Assembly: GCA_020404895.1 (NCBI GenBank)
Contig: JADBWK010000019.1
Coordinates: 1-64,000, forward strand
DNA: 64,000 nt
Direction: 5' to 3'
Source: Pseudanabaena sp. M085S1SP2A07QC
GTDB taxonomy: Bacteria > Cyanobacteriota > Cyanobacteriia > Pseudanabaenales > Pseudanabaenaceae
Shown here: one piece after another, positions 3,952 through 49,562 of the stretch
How the letters are laid out: the number at the start of each line of letters is the position of its first letter
Position numbering within the stretch: the first letter of the stretch is position 1
Notes under the pieces: generated by a model
Databases searched by the model: none
What the model was told of the DNA's origin: nothing
The model's input: the letters and a program-made list of their open reading frames with translations, nothing else
Made by a program: the position numbers and the translations under genes

Positions 3952-4004
3952 GTAACTAAAACCAAAAAGGTAGTGCTTTGCACTACCTTTTTGGTTTTAG
4001 TTAC
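3952..4004. terminator. Perfect 25-bp palindrome between convergent genes
   Basis: Arms 3952-3976 and 3980-4004 are fully complementary with a TTT loop. It lies between msrB (+) and the tpsB remnant (-) and can terminate both. Confidence 0.75.
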
Positions 4005-4030: not shown

Positions 4031-5870
4031 CTAAAATTGGTAGCCGATGTTGAAATAAAGCGAAGACTCTTGCAAATTAGAGCCGCGATCGCTAAGGTTA
4101 ACAAATGGAAGCGCATAATCTAGACGCAGATTTAGTCTTTTAATCGGCTCAAACAGAATTCCTAATCCACCACCAGCTAGAAAGTTTTGACTAGGAAGCA
4201 AATTGAGGTTTCTAGAATTATTCCACACAGTACCGAGATCGACAAAAGGAGCTAACTGGAGAACTGTGCGATCTTCCTCATTTCGCGCCACCACAAATCG
4301 ACTCTCCACAGAAAAGCGAATCCCATTATCACCCGATCGCGCATTTTGACGGAAGCCACGTAACGATTGACCACCACCAATCACAAACTGCTGTGATGGT
4401 ATAGCAACGTAAGAGATAGATAGGACAATTCAAAACCCAAAAGATGGCAGAGCGAAGCTCTGCCATCTTTTGGGTTTTATGTCCTAAGCAAAGCTTACAT
4501 TGCTATAAAAGCGGATCAGCCGAGAGTTGAGTATCTAAAGAACCGATCAAAATCGTATCAGTTCCCAGAACTTGAACCCGTTGAATTTGTCCCAACCAGC
4601 TTAAGAAAGCAGCACTGGGACTGGTAACATAAGTCGCTCCAAATAGCCCTGTCCCAAGACTAAACTGCGATCGCAAAGACCAAACTCCTTCAGTATCACG
4701 ACTAGTATAGTCTTGCCCAAATTTAAACACACTGGTGCGGCTAGTTCCATCGGATTCTGGCCCAATTCCAAATGGCACAGCCAGATCGTTAAATAGGAAA
4801 GTCTGACCTCTTTGATATTCATAACCTAGAGACAGTGCAAATTCTTCACGGAGAGAGCGGATCAAGGGTTGACGATAAGTTGCAGCATAAACTTCACTAT
4901 TGCCGCGAATATTAAAAGCATCAAATGGTGATTGGGTAATGCGATAGTTGCTGGGGGCAAACCGTAGCGAGACAGTTCCATTCATCGGATTAACGGGAAC
5001 ACTAAAACCAAAATCATATTGGTTAGAGCCACCTGTTGTGGTTCTGTAATAATTGGCTGTAAATACATCTCCCATCCCGAATAGATTGCGGTAACTTAGC
5101 CCTGCGCCTATGCGTTCAGAACCAACCGCAGGGGCTGAGAAGTTATCAAAACTAACAGAACCCGCAAATTGATTTGCTTCCACAACAGTAATCGTGAGAA
5201 TGCTCAAACCAGCTTTGCTACCAGCTTTGAGGCTAGCATCTACGCTTGTAAAATTGGGATCGGCACGGAGAAGCCGCAGTTGATCTTCGAGGTTATTGGT
5301 GTTGAGAGGAGTACCAATTCCTAGCTCAGTTCGCGATCGCACGTAGTCTGGATTCAGGGCATTAACGCCGATAATTTCGATTTTTTCGACTTTTCCTTCT
5401 AAAACTTGAATCTTGGCAATGCCATCAACGACACTTTGAGGAGTATAGAGAGCTTGAGAAGTGACATAGCCATTACTGACATACAGTTGAGTAATGGTGT
5501 TTGCAGCGTTTGTTAGTTGCTCTTCAGTAACTTCCTTTCCTTCGAGAGGCTTAATGATAGGTTCGAGTTTGTCGGCATCGAAAATAGTGCTGCCAATGAC
5601 TTCAATTCTTTTAATTGGAATTGCTTGAGCGATTTGAGTTTGAGAAGTTTGAACTTGAGCAACTTGAGATGGAGAAGTCAGAGAAGAATGGGCTAAGTCT
5701 TGTGAGGAAATAGAACTAGTTGATAGCGAAGGTGTTAAATCTGTGGAAAGTGGATTAGCATTAGCCGACAACCCACAATCTGCTGCTACTAATGCAAGGG
5801 TAGAAAGCCCTAATAATATTGGATGAATTCTTGCGAGCTTGACCTTTAATTCCGCTATTTTTGGGCGCAT
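4031..5870 (-). pseudogene. TpsB/ShlB-type outer-membrane transporter, split by a 108-bp mobile element
   Basis: The 5' part (5870 down to 4508) encodes a signal peptide, a POTRA domain (about residues 80-160, starting at IPIKRIEVIGS) and most of an FhaC/ShlB beta-barrel. It stops at TAG inside the inserted element at 4400-4507. The 3' part (4399 down to 4031) continues with PSQQFVIGGGQSLRGF, the conserved L6-type motif of TpsB proteins, to the C-terminal strand ending in YQF. Removing 106 bp (one TA kept) joins ADPLL to PSQQF in frame and gives about 577 residues, the normal TpsB length. The truncated barrel is very unlikely to function. It is divergent from the tpsA gene, its presumed secretion substrate. 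Confidence 0.9.
4400..4507. mobile_element. 108-bp MITE copy 1, inserted in tpsB
   Basis: Terminal inverted repeats TATAGCAACGTAAG and CTTACATTGCTATA (one mismatch) enclose a TAGGACA/TGTCCTA pair and a long central hairpin with a GGCAGAGC core. The element sits at a TA dinucleotide, with TA at both edges. It encodes nothing. TA duplication is typical of IS630/Tc1-mariner derivatives, which is only an inference as no transposase is present here. Confidence 0.9.
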
Positions 5871-6013
5871 AATTCTTGTTTTTACGTTGATTCCTCACTA
5901 ACAGAAAAAACGTTAGCATATTCCAGTCTTAATTAGATATTTTATGGAAATATAGTATAAATTTATATTGTATAAGTCTCAGTAAAAATTTTGGTGTGTG
6001 GTTGGAGATTATG
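5871..6013. promoter_or_regulatory. Divergent tpsB/tpsA intergenic region
   Basis: This AT-rich 143-bp spacer must hold the promoters of both genes. Around 5950-5975 there are overlapping TATAAA/TATATT-type boxes that could serve as -10 elements on either strand, but I cannot assign a start point. GGAG at 6004-6007 lies six bases before the ATG at 6014 and supports that start for tpsA. Confidence 0.35.
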
Positions 6014-9000
6014 ATGAAGTCAACTTGGAGCCTATGTTGGATCACTACCGCGATCGCCTTATCTCCAGTAATACTGACAGCACCCGTCACAGCGCAATCG
6101 ATCACCGCCGCGCAAGATGGGACTGGCACAGTTGTATTGCCAAATGGACATAGATTTGACATTACAGGCGGAACTCAAGCAGGGGCAAATTTATTTCATA
6201 GTTTTCAGCAATTTGGCTTAAGCCAAGGACAAATCGCCAACTTTCTCAGTCAACCAAACATTCAAAATATTCTCGGTCGCGTCGTTGGCGGAGACCCTTC
6301 CGTTATCAATGGCTTAATCCAACTGACAGGCGGCAATTCTAATCTCTACATCATGAATCCCGCAGGTGTGATTTTTGGAACCAATGCGAGCTTAAATGTT
6401 CCTGCTTCTTTTACTGCTACGACTGCCAATGGAATCCAAGTTGGGAATAGTTGGTTTGGAATGAACACCATCGCCAGCGATCTCAAGAATCTGACAGGAA
6501 CTCCTAATGCTTTTGCTTTCACTAGTCCTTCTACTACCATCCAAAATCAAACATCAGGAGTAATTGTCAATCAAGGCAATCTCAACGTTTCGCAAGGAAA
6601 GAGTATTTCCTTGGTTGGTGGGATTGTGATTAATACAGGGGCGATCGCCACACCTAATGGAACAATTAACATCGTTGCTGTACCTGATAGTAAATATGTG
6701 CGGATTACGCCTGAAGGTGGTGTTCTCAGTTTTGATCTCCCCATAGCCTCTCAACAAGAATTGGGCAGTACCAAACCGATCGCAGGAATTGATTTGCCAA
6801 AATTACTGACTGGGTCAGGGATTACTGCACCGACAAAAGCAGGAGAAATTATTGCGTCGGGTAATCTCACAGCCGCCAATATCAATATTCTTGCCAATCG
6901 TTACAACACCACTCAAGCTTCTTTAAATGCGACTAACATCCAACAGGGTTGGAACTTTGTATTTATTGACAGCACGGTTAAGGATTATCAAACATTATTA
7001 GATGGGACTAATGGTGGTAGTAGTGTCACGGTGATTAATCCTGATCAGTATGGCATTCAGAAAGTGACTGAGACTTTGGCGAGTGTGACGGGTGCAAATA
7101 GTCTGCATATTGTGTCTGAAGGTGATGTTGGTAATTTCTGGCTCGGTAAGGATTTTGTCAGTACTGAGAATATTGCTAGATATGCCAACGATCTCCAAGC
7201 ATGGAAAACTTCTTTATCACCTGCGGCGAATATTTTGCTCTATGCCTGTAATTTGGCTAGTGGAGAGAATGGGGCGGCGCTTGTGCAAGCAGTGAAACAC
7301 TATACTGGGCGTGAGGTGGCGGCTTCGACTGACTTGACGGGTAGCAGTAAGCTCGGTGGCAACTGGAATCTGGAATATCAGACTGGGAAACTGAATACGG
7401 GCGTGGTGTTTAGTTCTGAAGCTCAGAATAGTTATAACGGTCGGCTCGTTACTTTTACTACTACAAATATTAATGATGCTGGCGCAGGGTCTTTGAGACA
7501 AGCGATTATTGATGCTAATGCTTTGGCGGGTGCTGATGACATTCGGTTTGACCCGACTGTGTTTAATGGCGCTCAAGCAGCGATTACTTTAGCAACGACC
7601 TTGGATATTGATACCACTAATGGCGATCTCAACATCAGTGGTGCGTTTGGAGCCAGCAATGTCACGGTGAGTGGCAATAATGCGGTGGGAGTATTTGATA
7701 TCACGGGTAATGGCAATACCACGTTTGATAGTTTAAGGATTGTTAATGGAAGAGTAGCAGGCGATGGTGGTGGAATAAATAACACTGGAACTGGAGCTTT
7801 GACGCTCACCAATAGCACTGTGTCGGGTAATACTTCAAGTAACGCTGGTGGTGGGATTTTTAGTAATGGAGCTATGACTCTCATCAATAGCACTGTCTCT
7901 GGTAATACGACGCTTTTTGCTGGTGGGATTGTTAGCTTTGGAGCCGTGACCCTCACCAATAGTACTGTGTCGGCTAATACTGGTGGTGGGATTTTTAGTA
8001 ATGGAGCCGTGACCCTCACCAATAGCATTGTGTCGGGTAATACTTCAAGGAACGTTGGTGGTGGGATTGTTAGCTTTGGAGCCGTGACCCTCACCAATAG
8101 CATTGTGTCGGGTAATACTTCAAGTAACGCTGGTGGTGGGATTGTTAGTAATGGAGCCGTGACCCTCACCAATAGTACTGTGTCGGGTAATACGGCAGGT
8201 AGTGTTGGTGGGGGGATTTGGGGCAATGACGGAGGCATGATCACCAATAGCACCATTACCAACAATACTGCCAATGTTATCGGCATCGGCAGTATTGTTG
8301 GTAATGGTGGGATTTTTCTTAACAACGGCACATTTACGATTACCAATTCGATTGTGGCGGGTAACTTTAAAGGTACGACAGTTCAGGACTTGGGGAGTAA
8401 TACCGCAGGAGTAGGTTTTACCAATGGGGGCAATAATTTAATCGGTGCAAATGATGGCTTTGCCGCAACATTTCCCACTAGCTCTCTCATCGGCACGATC
8501 GCAAATCCCATCAATCCCCAACTTGCACCCCTTGGTAACTATGGCGGCACAACCCAAACCCATGCACTCCTACCCAATAGCCCAGCCTTAAATGCAGGGA
8601 ATAATGCTAATGCTCCAGTAGGTAACGATCAACGGGGTGCAACCCGCATTTTTGGTGGCGTTGTCGATATCGGTGCATTTGAATCTCAAGGCTTTAGTCT
8701 CACCCCATTAGCTAACTCCACACCCCAGAGTACCAATATCAACACCAGTTTTGCTCAGCTTCTAGGCGTACAAGTCACCGAAAACTTCGTGAATAGCCCA
8801 ATTCCAAATGTTTTAGTTACCTTTGCTCCACCTTCTAGCGGAGCCAGTGGCTCATTTGCAGGTAATGCCAGCGTACTAACCAACAATCTTGGTATTGCCG
8901 TAGCTCCTACGTTCACCGCCAATGGAGTTGCAGGCAGTTATACAGTAGCAGCGACAATAACTGGACTCACTCCCGCATCATTTTCACTGACTAATGCAAC

Positions 9001-9076
9001 CAATAAAGTTGATGGATTTGGTGGTGTATTTCCTAGTCGTGAGGATTTAGAAGGACGCGCTCCCAGATTTGACTAG
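6014..9076 (+). CDS. TpsA-type exoprotein: filamentous hemagglutinin N-domain, DUF4347, beta-helix repeats
   Basis: About 1020 residues from ATG 6014 (ATG 6011 or GTG 5996 are alternatives). A signal peptide ending near VTAQS is followed by a TPS secretion domain (about 25-270; NPAGVIFG motif), a DUF4347 domain (about 312-472), and a polymorphic-outer-membrane-type segment with choice-of-anchor Q features (SLRQAIIDAN; DIGAFESQ near 890). About eight repeats of roughly 24 residues, of the form GGGIFSNGAVTLTNSTVSGN, lie at about 575-750. An Ig-like C-terminus follows. It is probably exported by the divergent TpsB, which is broken. The TAG stop at 9074-9076 may be premature: 31 further in-frame codons to TAA 9170-9172 are conserved in the remnant paralogue downstream. 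Confidence 0.85.
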   Translation: MKSTWSLCWITTAIALSPVILTAPVTAQSITAAQDGTGTVVLPNGHRFDITGGTQAGANLFHSFQQFGLSQGQIANFLSQPNIQNILGRVVGGDPSVINGLIQLTGGNSNLYIMNPAGVIFGTNASLNVPASFTATTANGIQVGNSWFGMNTIASDLKNLTGTPNAFAFTSPSTTIQNQTSGVIVNQGNLNVSQGKSISLVGGIVINTGAIATPNGTINIVAVPDSKYVRITPEGGVLSFDLPIASQQELGSTKPIAGIDLPKLLTGSGITAPTKAGEIIASGNLTAANINILANRYNTTQASLNATNIQQGWNFVFIDSTVKDYQTLLDGTNGGSSVTVINPDQYGIQKVTETLASVTGANSLHIVSEGDVGNFWLGKDFVSTENIARYANDLQAWKTSLSPAANILLYACNLASGENGAALVQAVKHYTGREVAASTDLTGSSKLGGNWNLEYQTGKLNTGVVFSSEAQNSYNGRLVTFTTTNINDAGAGSLRQAIIDANALAGADDIRFDPTVFNGAQAAITLATTLDIDTTNGDLNISGAFGASNVTVSGNNAVGVFDITGNGNTTFDSLRIVNGRVAGDGGGINNTGTGALTLTNSTVSGNTSSNAGGGIFSNGAMTLINSTVSGNTTLFAGGIVSFGAVTLTNSTVSANTGGGIFSNGAVTLTNSIVSGNTSRNVGGGIVSFGAVTLTNSIVSGNTSSNAGGGIVSNGAVTLTNSTVSGNTAGSVGGGIWGNDGGMITNSTITNNTANVIGIGSIVGNGGIFLNNGTFTITNSIVAGNFKGTTVQDLGSNTAGVGFTNGGNNLIGANDGFAATFPTSSLIGTIANPINPQLAPLGNYGGTTQTHALLPNSPALNAGNNANAPVGNDQRGATRIFGGVVDIGAFESQGFSLTPLANSTPQSTNINTSFAQLLGVQVTENFVNSPIPNVLVTFAPPSSGASGSFAGNASVLTNNLGIAVAPTFTANGVAGSYTVAATITGLTPASFSLTNATNKVDGFGGVFPSREDLEGRAPRFD

Positions 9077-9387: not shown

Positions 9388-9495
9388 TATAGCAACGTAA
9401 GAGATAGATAGGACAATTCAAAACCCAAAAGATGGCAGAGCTTCGCTCTGCCATCTTTTGGGTTTTATGTCCTAAGCAAAGCTTACATTGCTATA
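9388..9495. mobile_element. 108-bp MITE copy 2
   Basis: Same ends, length and orientation as the copy in tpsB, differing mainly in the loop (AGCTTCGCT instead of AGCGAAGCT). It ends nine bases from the stop codon of the minus-strand Rpn gene, so it could act as that gene's terminator. Confidence 0.9.
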
Positions 9496-15249: not shown

Positions 15250-15966
15250 ATGATTAAAATATTGCTCAAAAATTTATTTTCCCAGCTATGTTTTGGGGCG
15301 ATCGCTTTACTAATTAGCTTTAATTTATTGACAGGTAATGCATTGGCTTTGCAAGTATCAGATATTCCTGACTTAGCCGAAATTAAGACCCTGACTGATC
15401 AGACTTGGGTAATTGATGACTCTGATGTATTAAGTGCTTCGACCAAAAGTACGATCATCAGCAAAACTGAAAAATTAGCAGAATTAACGGGGATCGAAGT
15501 TCATGTTGTCGCAATTCGCCGTATTGATTTAGGTCAACCTGCATCAGAATTTACGGCAGAATTATTTGATAAATGGTTCCCCTCTGAAGTAGAGAAGGCT
15601 AATCAAGTATTACTATTTATGGCGACCGAAGATCACCGTACCGCGATTCAGACTGGCTCAAAGGTAAAAGAAGTTCTGTCTGATAGTGTTGCTAATAGTA
15701 TTGCCGATGAGACGATGCTCTATCCTGCTCGTAAGGCAAACTATAACCAATCGGTAAATGAGGGACTTGCTCGTCTTGAGGCAGTTTTGAGAGGCAATCC
15801 AGACCCAGGGGCTCCACTATTAGCAGTAGAAGAGACTGAGACGAGCAACTATGCTACTAGAGAGGAAACTGAGGCAAGTTCATCGAATGTGGTGGTGATT
15901 ATTCTGCTGGTTTTGGCAACGCTGTTACCTATGGCGACTTACTACTGGTTGCAAAGCCAACCATAA
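15250..15966 (+). CDS. psb32: TPM-domain protein, Psb32-like (photosystem II repair)
   Basis: 238 residues from ATG 15250; a TTG at 15199 is in frame but less likely. A signal peptide or anchor (about 1-35, ending ALALQ) is followed by a TPM domain (about 45-190, WVIDDSDVLSAS, then LLFMATEDHRTAIQTGSKV) and a C-terminal membrane helix (about 212-232). Psb32 is a thylakoid-membrane protein that protects photosystem II and speeds its repair. TPM domains are shared with other proteins, so the symbol is probable rather than certain. Confidence 0.8.
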   Translation: MIKILLKNLFSQLCFGAIALLISFNLLTGNALALQVSDIPDLAEIKTLTDQTWVIDDSDVLSASTKSTIISKTEKLAELTGIEVHVVAIRRIDLGQPASEFTAELFDKWFPSEVEKANQVLLFMATEDHRTAIQTGSKVKEVLSDSVANSIADETMLYPARKANYNQSVNEGLARLEAVLRGNPDPGAPLLAVEETETSNYATREETEASSSNVVVIILLVLATLLPMATYYWLQSQP

Positions 15967-16017
15967 CGCAAAAAGAAAGAGTCGGCGAGATGTGCCGACT
16001 CTTTCTTTTTGCGTTAT
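15963..16017. terminator. 24-bp palindrome shared by two convergent genes
   Basis: Arms 15963-15986 and 15994-16017 are complementary. The stop codon of psb32 lies in the left arm and the first base of the opposing gene's stop codon in the right arm, so one hairpin closes both genes. Confidence 0.75.
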
Positions 16018-18461: not shown

Positions 18462-18943
18462 ATTCGGCGATCGCGGGTTAGGGCGGTAAAGTGTGCTTAG
18501 TTATCGCAAATACTAACCCATATAGGCTTGTATAGCAATTAAAAGCAAAGATGTACCAATTCACAGAAGTTTTGTCGCACTTTTGTGAATTAAAAACCAA
18601 ACCCTGTAAGGGTTTTAAAATCATAAAATGGCTTTTCCATTTTGTGATTTGGTATAAGTAGCTAGGTATAATTAATTGCAAACGAAAACCCGTAAAGTTG
18701 TGCCCCTGCGGAGCACAACTTTACGGGTTTTCGTAATTTATTTGCACAAGTACTTATATCGTTTTGAGCGGTATAGCTGTCGCCATTCTTGTTAGGACAT
18801 AAAACCCAAATAGTGAAAGGCAGCGCGAAGAGCCGCCTTTCACTATTTGGGTTTGTATTTGTCTTGATAAAAGTGGCTAAGGCAATAATTGCTGTAAATC
18901 CGATAAGTGTAAGGTTGCGACCCTGCGGGTCGCAACCTTACAC
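18462..18943. repeat. Gene-free stretch filled with long palindromes
   Basis: 482 bp without a credible gene. Perfect or near-perfect hairpins sit at 18682-18734 (22-bp arms), 18802-18854 (20-bp arms) and 18903-18947 (21-bp arms, TGC loop, overlapping the end of the DUF4079 gene). Bases 18792-18810 (TTAGGACATAAAACCCAAA) are identical to part of the 108-bp MITE, and the sequence after the hairpin also resembles it, so 18792-18865 may be a diverged relative with a different stem. Confidence 0.6.
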
Positions 18944-26018: not shown

Positions 26019-26019
26019 C

Positions 26020-26119
26020 AAAACCAATTTTGGTGTTTGCAGCGCCGAAGGCGCTGCAAACACCAAAATTGGTTTTGATGCAAGTCCACCAGCGGCGGAC
26101 TTGCATCAAAACCAATTTT
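26020..26119. repeat. Two overlapping long palindromes sharing an arm
   Basis: First hairpin: 26020-26046 with 26050-26076 (27 bp perfect, GAA loop). Second hairpin: 26065-26087 with 26097-26119 (23 bp perfect). The segment 26065-26076 (AAAATTGGTTTT) belongs to both stems, so only one can form fully at a time. It lies between the WD40 gene and the SPFH gene. Confidence 0.75.
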
Positions 26120-26977: not shown

Positions 26978-27085
26978 TATAGCAACGTAAGAGATAGATA
27001 GGACAATTCAAAACCCAAAAGATGGCAGCGCGAAGCTCTGCCATCTTTTGGGTTTTATGTCCTAAGCAAAGCTTACATTGCTATA
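26978..27085. mobile_element. 108-bp MITE copy 3
   Basis: Same 14-bp ends and length as the other copies; the core reads GGCAGCGCGAAGCTCTGCC, with one unpaired change against the others. It begins four bases after the TAA of the SPFH gene and abuts a different 89-bp element. Confidence 0.9.
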
Positions 27086-27914: not shown

Positions 27915-27961
27915 ACCCAAAAAGAGTTGGCGGCGCGAAGCGCCGCCAACTCTTTTTGGGT
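27915..27961. repeat. 22-bp palindrome upstream of pyrE
   Basis: Perfect arms 27915-27936 and 27940-27961 with a GAA loop and a GGCGGCGC core. It lies between the divergent pyrE and the small secreted-protein gene, thus at 5' ends. Confidence 0.6.
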
Positions 27962-28545: not shown

Positions 28546-28602
28546 AAAATCCCCAACAATAAAGGCAGCGCCTCTAGCGCTGCCTTTATTGTTGGGGATT
28601 TT
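28546..28602. terminator. Perfect 26-bp palindrome, end of the cpc operon
   Basis: Arms 28546-28571 and 28577-28602 with loop CTCTA. It lies between the convergent secreted-protein gene and cpcD and can terminate both, including the highly expressed cpc transcript. Confidence 0.8.
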
Positions 28603-32785: not shown

Positions 32786-32893
32786 TATAGCAACGTAAGA
32801 GATAGATAGGACAATTCAAAACTCAAAAGATGGCAGAGCTTTGCTCTGCCATCTTTTGGGTTTTATGTCCTGAGCAAAGCTTACATTGCTATA
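32786..32893. mobile_element. 108-bp MITE copy 4
   Basis: Same ends and length as the other copies (AAACTCAAAA instead of AAACCCAAAA in the left stem, so one mispaired base). It ends one base away from the TAG stop codon of the minus-strand beta-propeller gene. Confidence 0.9.
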
Positions 32894-48763: not shown

Positions 48764-49562
48764 TTAAAGATTTTCTGGATCAACACCCATTTCACGGAGC
48801 TTAGCGGTAAATTTTGCGATCGCGTCTAGAGCCTGTTCTTTTGCAATTTTCTCAGTCTCAGCTCGATCTCGTTCTCGTTGAGCATGTTCAGCTTGTTCGA
48901 GATAAGTTAAAAACCTTGTATAGCAATGTAAGCTTTGCTTAGGACATAAAACCCAAAAGATGGCAGAGCTTCGCTCTGCCATCTTTTGGGTTTTGAATTG
49001 TCCTATCTATCTCTTACGTTGCTATACCATCAGGTTGAAGTATCTTGAGAGTCTCATCAGTAAGTTCAAAACGAATTCCTAAGCGAGGACTTGTCCAATT
49101 TTGAATATCGGCTATTGGTTCGAGATGGTGATCGTCATGATTTCGTAACCAACCGACCAAATCATTGGCAAGATGATCGTAAACATAGTATTCCTCGACA
49201 CCATAGGTTTGGTAGAACTCAAATTTTCGGGCCATCTCCGAAATTCGATTTCCCCTCGACAAGACCTCAAATACTACTTGAGGCGCAATTCCTTCTTCGA
49301 GGTGTTGAATGTAGGAACCCCTTGCGCCCTTTGGTCTCCCAAACACGACCATCACATCAGGAGCGCGACGAATTTCTGACTGTCCCTCCACAGGATACCA
49401 AAGCAAATCTCCCGCGATGAATACATCATTGTTGTCTTTAAAAAGAGCCTCTAATCCGCCCTCAATCGTGACAATCCATTGATAATGCTCGGTACTTTCT
49501 GCCATTGGTTGCCCATCACTACTAGGATAGATGATTTCTAATTTGGAGATTGTGTTGGTCAT
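48764..49562 (-). pseudogene. Uma2 family (DUF820) nuclease-like gene, split by a 108-bp MITE
   Basis: The 5' part (49562 down to 49027) encodes the Uma2 PD-(D/E)XK-like domain, with APDVMVVFGRPKG and APQVVFEVLSRGNR as the acidic motifs. It reads into the element at 48919-49026 and stops (PDGIAT). The 3' part (48918 down to 48764) encodes the usual charged coiled-coil tail (RFLTYLEQAEHAQRER, ending MGVDPENL). Removing 106 bp gives PDG-TRFLTYLEQ in frame and about 230 residues. The 182-residue truncated product keeps the nuclease-like domain and might still fold. Confidence 0.9.
48919..49026. mobile_element. 108-bp MITE copy 5, inserted in a Uma2 gene (inverted)
   Basis: This copy is reversed relative to the other four (TATAGCAATGTAAG on the left). 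Length is again exactly 108 with TA at both edges, and the central hairpin is perfectly paired. Confidence 0.92.

Follow-up and report, generated by a model that had tools for sequence, protein, structure and literature searches.

The tpsB gene of Pseudanabaena sp. M085S1SP2A07QC, in the stretch of 64,000 nucleotides analysed here (the window), is split by a MITE, a short non-autonomous transposon. We consider it very probable that this high-copy Pseudanabaena element, which would have been mobilised in trans by a transposase of the IS630/Tc1-mariner type, recently inserted at a TA in the gene. The break is a well-made case of ordinary gene disruption and bears no sign of a special excision system.

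Insertion Site in tpsB

The MITE copy lies at 4400-4507 on the plus strand and reads TATAGCAACGTAAG...CTTACATTGCTATA, 108 bp counting both copies of the TA. The TA is duplicated and the net gain is 106 bp. Joining the flanks at one TA gives a single minus-strand open frame of 577 aa, in which ADPLL and PSQQF meet in frame. The joined gene was searched for further stops and frameshifts, and none is present. The preliminary description of this DNA, which had a 108-bp element splitting tpsB at a TA and the gene otherwise undamaged, is thus confirmed in coordinates, duplication, joined frame and lack of other damage.

It had also proposed a comparison with close relatives, and this comes out clearly. 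Nothing interrupts the insertion site in thirteen homologues, which come from other genomes of Pseudanabaena and are 63-95% identical to tpsB; the motif A(D/N)PLL(P/S)(S/A)QQF is unbroken in all of them. One, in UWO311 (L067), provides a natural empty site, TCGGCTGATCCGCTTTTACCATCACAGCAGTTTGTGATT, in which 39 bp are identical to the joined tpsB flanks and the TA is single. The uninterrupted homologues and the empty site of UWO311 show that the element entered tpsB in this lineage and duplicated the TA. Restoration of the frame on removal of 106 bp follows from the same facts, because it results whenever an element enters an otherwise undamaged gene and duplicates 2 bp. Frame restoration is therefore automatic and carries no information on excision.

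Effect on the TpsB Product

The gene has the features of a TpsB transporter, a POTRA_2 domain with a ShlB/FhaC barrel and an adjoining TPS-domain exoprotein, with the barrel now divided over two fragments. The 5′ fragment (4506-5870, minus strand; 455 aa on translation) carries POTRA_2 (Pfam PF08479) and the first three quarters of the ShlB/FhaC profile (PF03865, positions 1-234 of 311). The 3′ fragment (4031-4401, minus strand; residues about 456-577 by alignment to intact orthologues) carries the end of the barrel, matched by the C-terminal part of the Pfam Omp85/ShlB profile, with GGGQSLRGF and a C-terminal YQF. Translation from the 5′ side meets a TAG, supplied by the terminal repeat of the MITE, directly after ADPLL. 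Every one of the six reading frames of the MITE contains a stop, and the net 106 bp that it adds are not a multiple of three.

Among the 122 residues lost are the GGGQSLRGF segment, which we read as the RGY/F loop motif conserved in TpsB proteins, and the aromatic residue at the C-terminus, which in this family is used in barrel assembly. Because the last part of the barrel is missing, the truncated protein of 455 residues is probably non-functional, and tpsB would be a young pseudogene in the sequenced strain.

A High-Copy MITE Family

The element has inverted terminal repeats of about 28 bp (TATAGCAAYGTAAG-N7-TAGGACA), both ends reading TATAGCAA(C/T)GTAAG. Between them lies a perfect hairpin (4432-4478) with 22-bp arms and a 3-nt loop, and the fold z-score is -12.8. 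It is identified as a MITE by its length below 600 bp (108 or 116 bp), the absence of a transposase gene, the inverted terminal repeats, the TA duplication with a matching empty site, and its near-identical copies in high number. A search of Rfam gave no match, a scan of the element for promoter and terminator consensus sequences found nothing, and a literature search for Pseudanabaena MITEs found no paper in the collection searched.

Five copies lie within the window. Besides the one in tpsB, they are found at 9388-9495 (plus strand, near the 3′ end of a PDDEXK_2 gene), 26978-27085 (plus), 32786-32893 (plus; slightly diverged, with C38T, A87G and loop changes) and 48919-49026 (minus), where the element interrupts another frame in its 3′ part (231 codons when joined, now 182 aa). 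The last copy also gives a start codon to a 72-aa frame that runs into its 3′ flank. The 4.81-Mb draft genome holds 182 forward and 184 reverse matches to the terminal repeat, against 1 and 0 for a reversed-pattern control (far more than chance would give), and 151 occurrences of the 36-bp left end, or about 150-180 copies of the MITE. The best 40 copies listed are 100% identical over the whole element. The sequence of the tpsB copy is the commonest of the family, being found in 38 of the 86 fully read 108-bp copies (at least 37 others), and 29 more differ from it solely by inversion of the three-base hairpin loop. So many identical or loop-inverted copies fit a recent amplification of the family.

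The family is present in all 26 Pseudanabaena genomes searched, where the better-scoring matches are mostly 116 bp; UWO311 carries a 108-bp copy identical to that in tpsB. Across the genus the ends are conserved, and the hairpin arms have 19 different sequences among 22 copies, paired perfectly over 19-28 bp. Among these genus copies (L095-L122) the loop GAA/TTC occurs inverted, as though the whole palindrome had been copied or turned round in one piece.

Some further repeats deserve mention. Copies at L045, L049, L052 and L055 adjoin a common sequence, GCAGCTTTTTTTTCTTGTTACTATAGGTAGCAACTTGGGTTA, near contig ends, and these seem to be nested in another repeat. Perfect hairpins with arms of 22-28 bp also occur in the window at 3952-4004, 2583-2633, 15963-16017, 26019-26077, 27915-27961 and 28546-28602, and several resemble the MITE core (AAAACC...). 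That at 3952-4004 lies exactly between the convergent msrB (SelR) and tpsB. Position 18772 marks the end of a possible second repeat family of the TA type, TATAGCTGTCGCC...TTAGGACA followed by AAAACCCAAAT, and similar ends adjoin IS630 genes in L214, L220 and L232.

MITE copies are strongly depleted from genes. Of 97 sites, 18 are in open frames of at least 200 aa, as against 324 of 600 random TA sites drawn from the 64-kb window only (P = 3e-11), which indicates that insertion is normally harmful. About a dozen long frames are nevertheless cut, some close to one end; they include the frames of a RAMP protein, TPR proteins, an AAA ATPase, a DNA methylase and a reverse transcriptase. tpsB is therefore one of several accessory genes struck.

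Candidate Source of the Transposase

Duplication of a TA points to the IS630/Tc1-mariner group. A 954-bp element in another Pseudanabaena genome (G021) has two frames, the second matching DDE_3, between the ends TATAGCAAAAAAAGGGAGAGATAGGACA and TATAGCAAAAGAAGGGATAGTTAGGACA, and related copies are found in G017, G003 and G005. The ends of these IS630-type elements agree with the left end of the MITE at 22-24 of 28 positions (23-24 in G021, G017 and G003), none being identical; the best TA-anchored 28-mer of the MITE-masked window agrees at 18. The TA target and the resemblance of the ends to an autonomous IS630-type element of relatives point to an IS630/Tc1-mariner origin of the MITE.

The strain's own draft genome yielded no IS630 copy that is intact and whose ends match exactly, and its relative of the G021-type transposase is solely a decayed fragment, 79% identical (C147), directly beside a MITE. 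The IS630 (DDE_3) loci of the genome were tried as the source of the MITE ends, and none has matching ends. One-ended terminal repeats in the contigs listed were also considered as possible full-length elements; those fetched are MITEs whose partner end has diverged, copies lying at the end of a contig, fragments or chance matches. None of them is a transposase element. To judge from the end sequences, an IS630/Tc1-mariner-type transposase probably moved the MITE, and an active source of it is presumed. Such a transposase would have mobilised the MITE in trans before the copy inserted at the TA of tpsB, recently on the evidence that follows.

Age of the Insertion

tpsB has no visible relaxation of selection. 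The joined gene gives dN/dS values of 0.07-0.10 against intact relatives, compared with 0.075-0.15 between the intact relatives themselves, and 0.04-0.09 downstream of the insertion. Codon changes unique to the tpsB of this strain number 6 non-synonymous and 20 synonymous (2 and 9 in G017). The lack of relaxed selection argues for a recent insertion, a dating that is rough since the branch has only six unique non-synonymous changes. The suggestion that the insertion must be recent stands, the copy having the commonest sequence of its family and relatives having empty sites as well. A population with a still-functional tpsB would give the same dN/dS picture.

The tpsA Partner

Divergent from tpsB is tpsA (5996-9076, plus strand), an intact frame for an exoprotein of 1026 aa with a TPS secretion domain (Pfam PF05860, 4e-37) and DUF4347 (PF14252, 3e-53). 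The genome has four such TPS-domain (TpsA) loci. A single TpsB gene lies close to each of them, and the tpsB of the window is the sole broken one. The three other TpsB genes are intact in length, and two of them are 61-64% identical to the broken TpsB, so that rescue of tpsA in trans is possible. The view that tpsA would be left without a transporter therefore holds for its cognate TpsB, which is broken, but not for the genome, which retains three other intact TpsB genes.

Other Readings of the Interruption

Selection might repeatedly favour the inactivation of tpsB, with tpsA retained; a costly surface adhesin or a phage receptor might thereby be avoided, for example. This is compatible with a recent MITE insertion and adds a cause to it. 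What speaks for it is Pseudanabaena biceps PCC 7429, in which the orthologous tpsB is divided near codon 62 over two scaffold ends (L213 5001-5331 and L194 1-360). The 8-bp repeat GATCATTC stands at each junction, and a long divergent frame of 1427 aa is retained upstream. The sequence at both scaffold ends we take to be IS66-like. With the join of the two scaffolds inferred, this tpsB appears to have been broken independently by an IS66-like element, a small hint of recurrent loss. However, drift in a dispensable gene would also break two of about nine orthologues when the genomes are rich in IS elements, and we regard selected loss as unlikely. Very unlikely, in our estimate, is the wider idea of a surface-exoprotein switch in Pseudanabaena, in which mobile elements (the MITE here, the IS66-like element in P. 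biceps) recurrently and possibly reversibly inactivate tpsB and leave tpsA in place.

Reversibility was raised for the window itself as well: precise excision of the MITE, if frequent enough, would leave a functional tpsB on some chromosomes of a cyanobacterium that is probably polyploid, making an on/off switch. Joining the flanks would give back the exact gene, selection on it shows no sign of relaxation, and with its many identical copies the family looks recently active; all three, however, are equally expected from a simple recent insertion, and the depletion of copies from genes indicates that insertions are not routinely repaired. Purified ISY100 transposase, moreover, cuts the 5′ ends two nucleotides inside the element (PMC2170065), so that end-joining would tend to leave a footprint and exact restoration would need templated repair. 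We think such a switch highly improbable. The perfect hairpin and the repeated flanking TA also bear a superficial likeness to translational bypass elements, by which the ribosome (or RNA processing) would skip the hairpin and tpsB would still be expressed. Yet the MITE is mostly intergenic and depleted from genes, it has the ends, the duplication and the copy number of a transposon, its hairpin arms vary freely among copies, and Rfam holds no match to it; bypass can be given almost no credence. The preferred reading remains the recent insertion of a mobilised MITE.

Comparison with Known Systems

The analysis documents a MITE family that has recently been active and extends through the genus Pseudanabaena; an exact empty site occurs in nature, and the parental type is probably an IS630 element. 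It also cautions that in findings of this kind frame-exact removal is automatic and is not evidence of excision. MITEs have been described in other cyanobacteria. Nezha, where PMC3733652 cites it (Zhou et al., 2008), is an active cyanobacterial MITE family, and is likened to the present one by that description only. ISY100 of Synechocystis is the member of the IS630/Tc1-mariner family that has been studied in cyanobacteria; in vitro it is excised and integrated with no protein other than its transposase (PMC2170065). It shares with our MITE the TA target and TA duplication, the likeness resting on the target and not on end sequence, but it is a full-length element that encodes its transposase.

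In Anabaena sp. 90, 147 hairpin-forming MITE copies of 77-541 bp are known, of which 132 are intergenic and 15 split genes into pseudogenes (PMC3542288). The two cases, compared by description, are alike in being high-copy, cyanobacterial and hairpin-forming with some genes split; they differ in that the Anabaena ends matched no IS of their own genome, whereas the Pseudanabaena ends resemble those of IS630-type elements of relatives. In Microcystis PCC 7806, a 187-bp MITE is inserted in sbp and livG, and a laboratory strain differs from its parent by such insertions (PMC11448079). That element has ISL3-type ends and an 8-bp duplication instead of a TA, and the function of sbp may be partly kept; like the tpsB case, it presents a recent insertion that splits a transport gene, with identical copies and a stem-loop.
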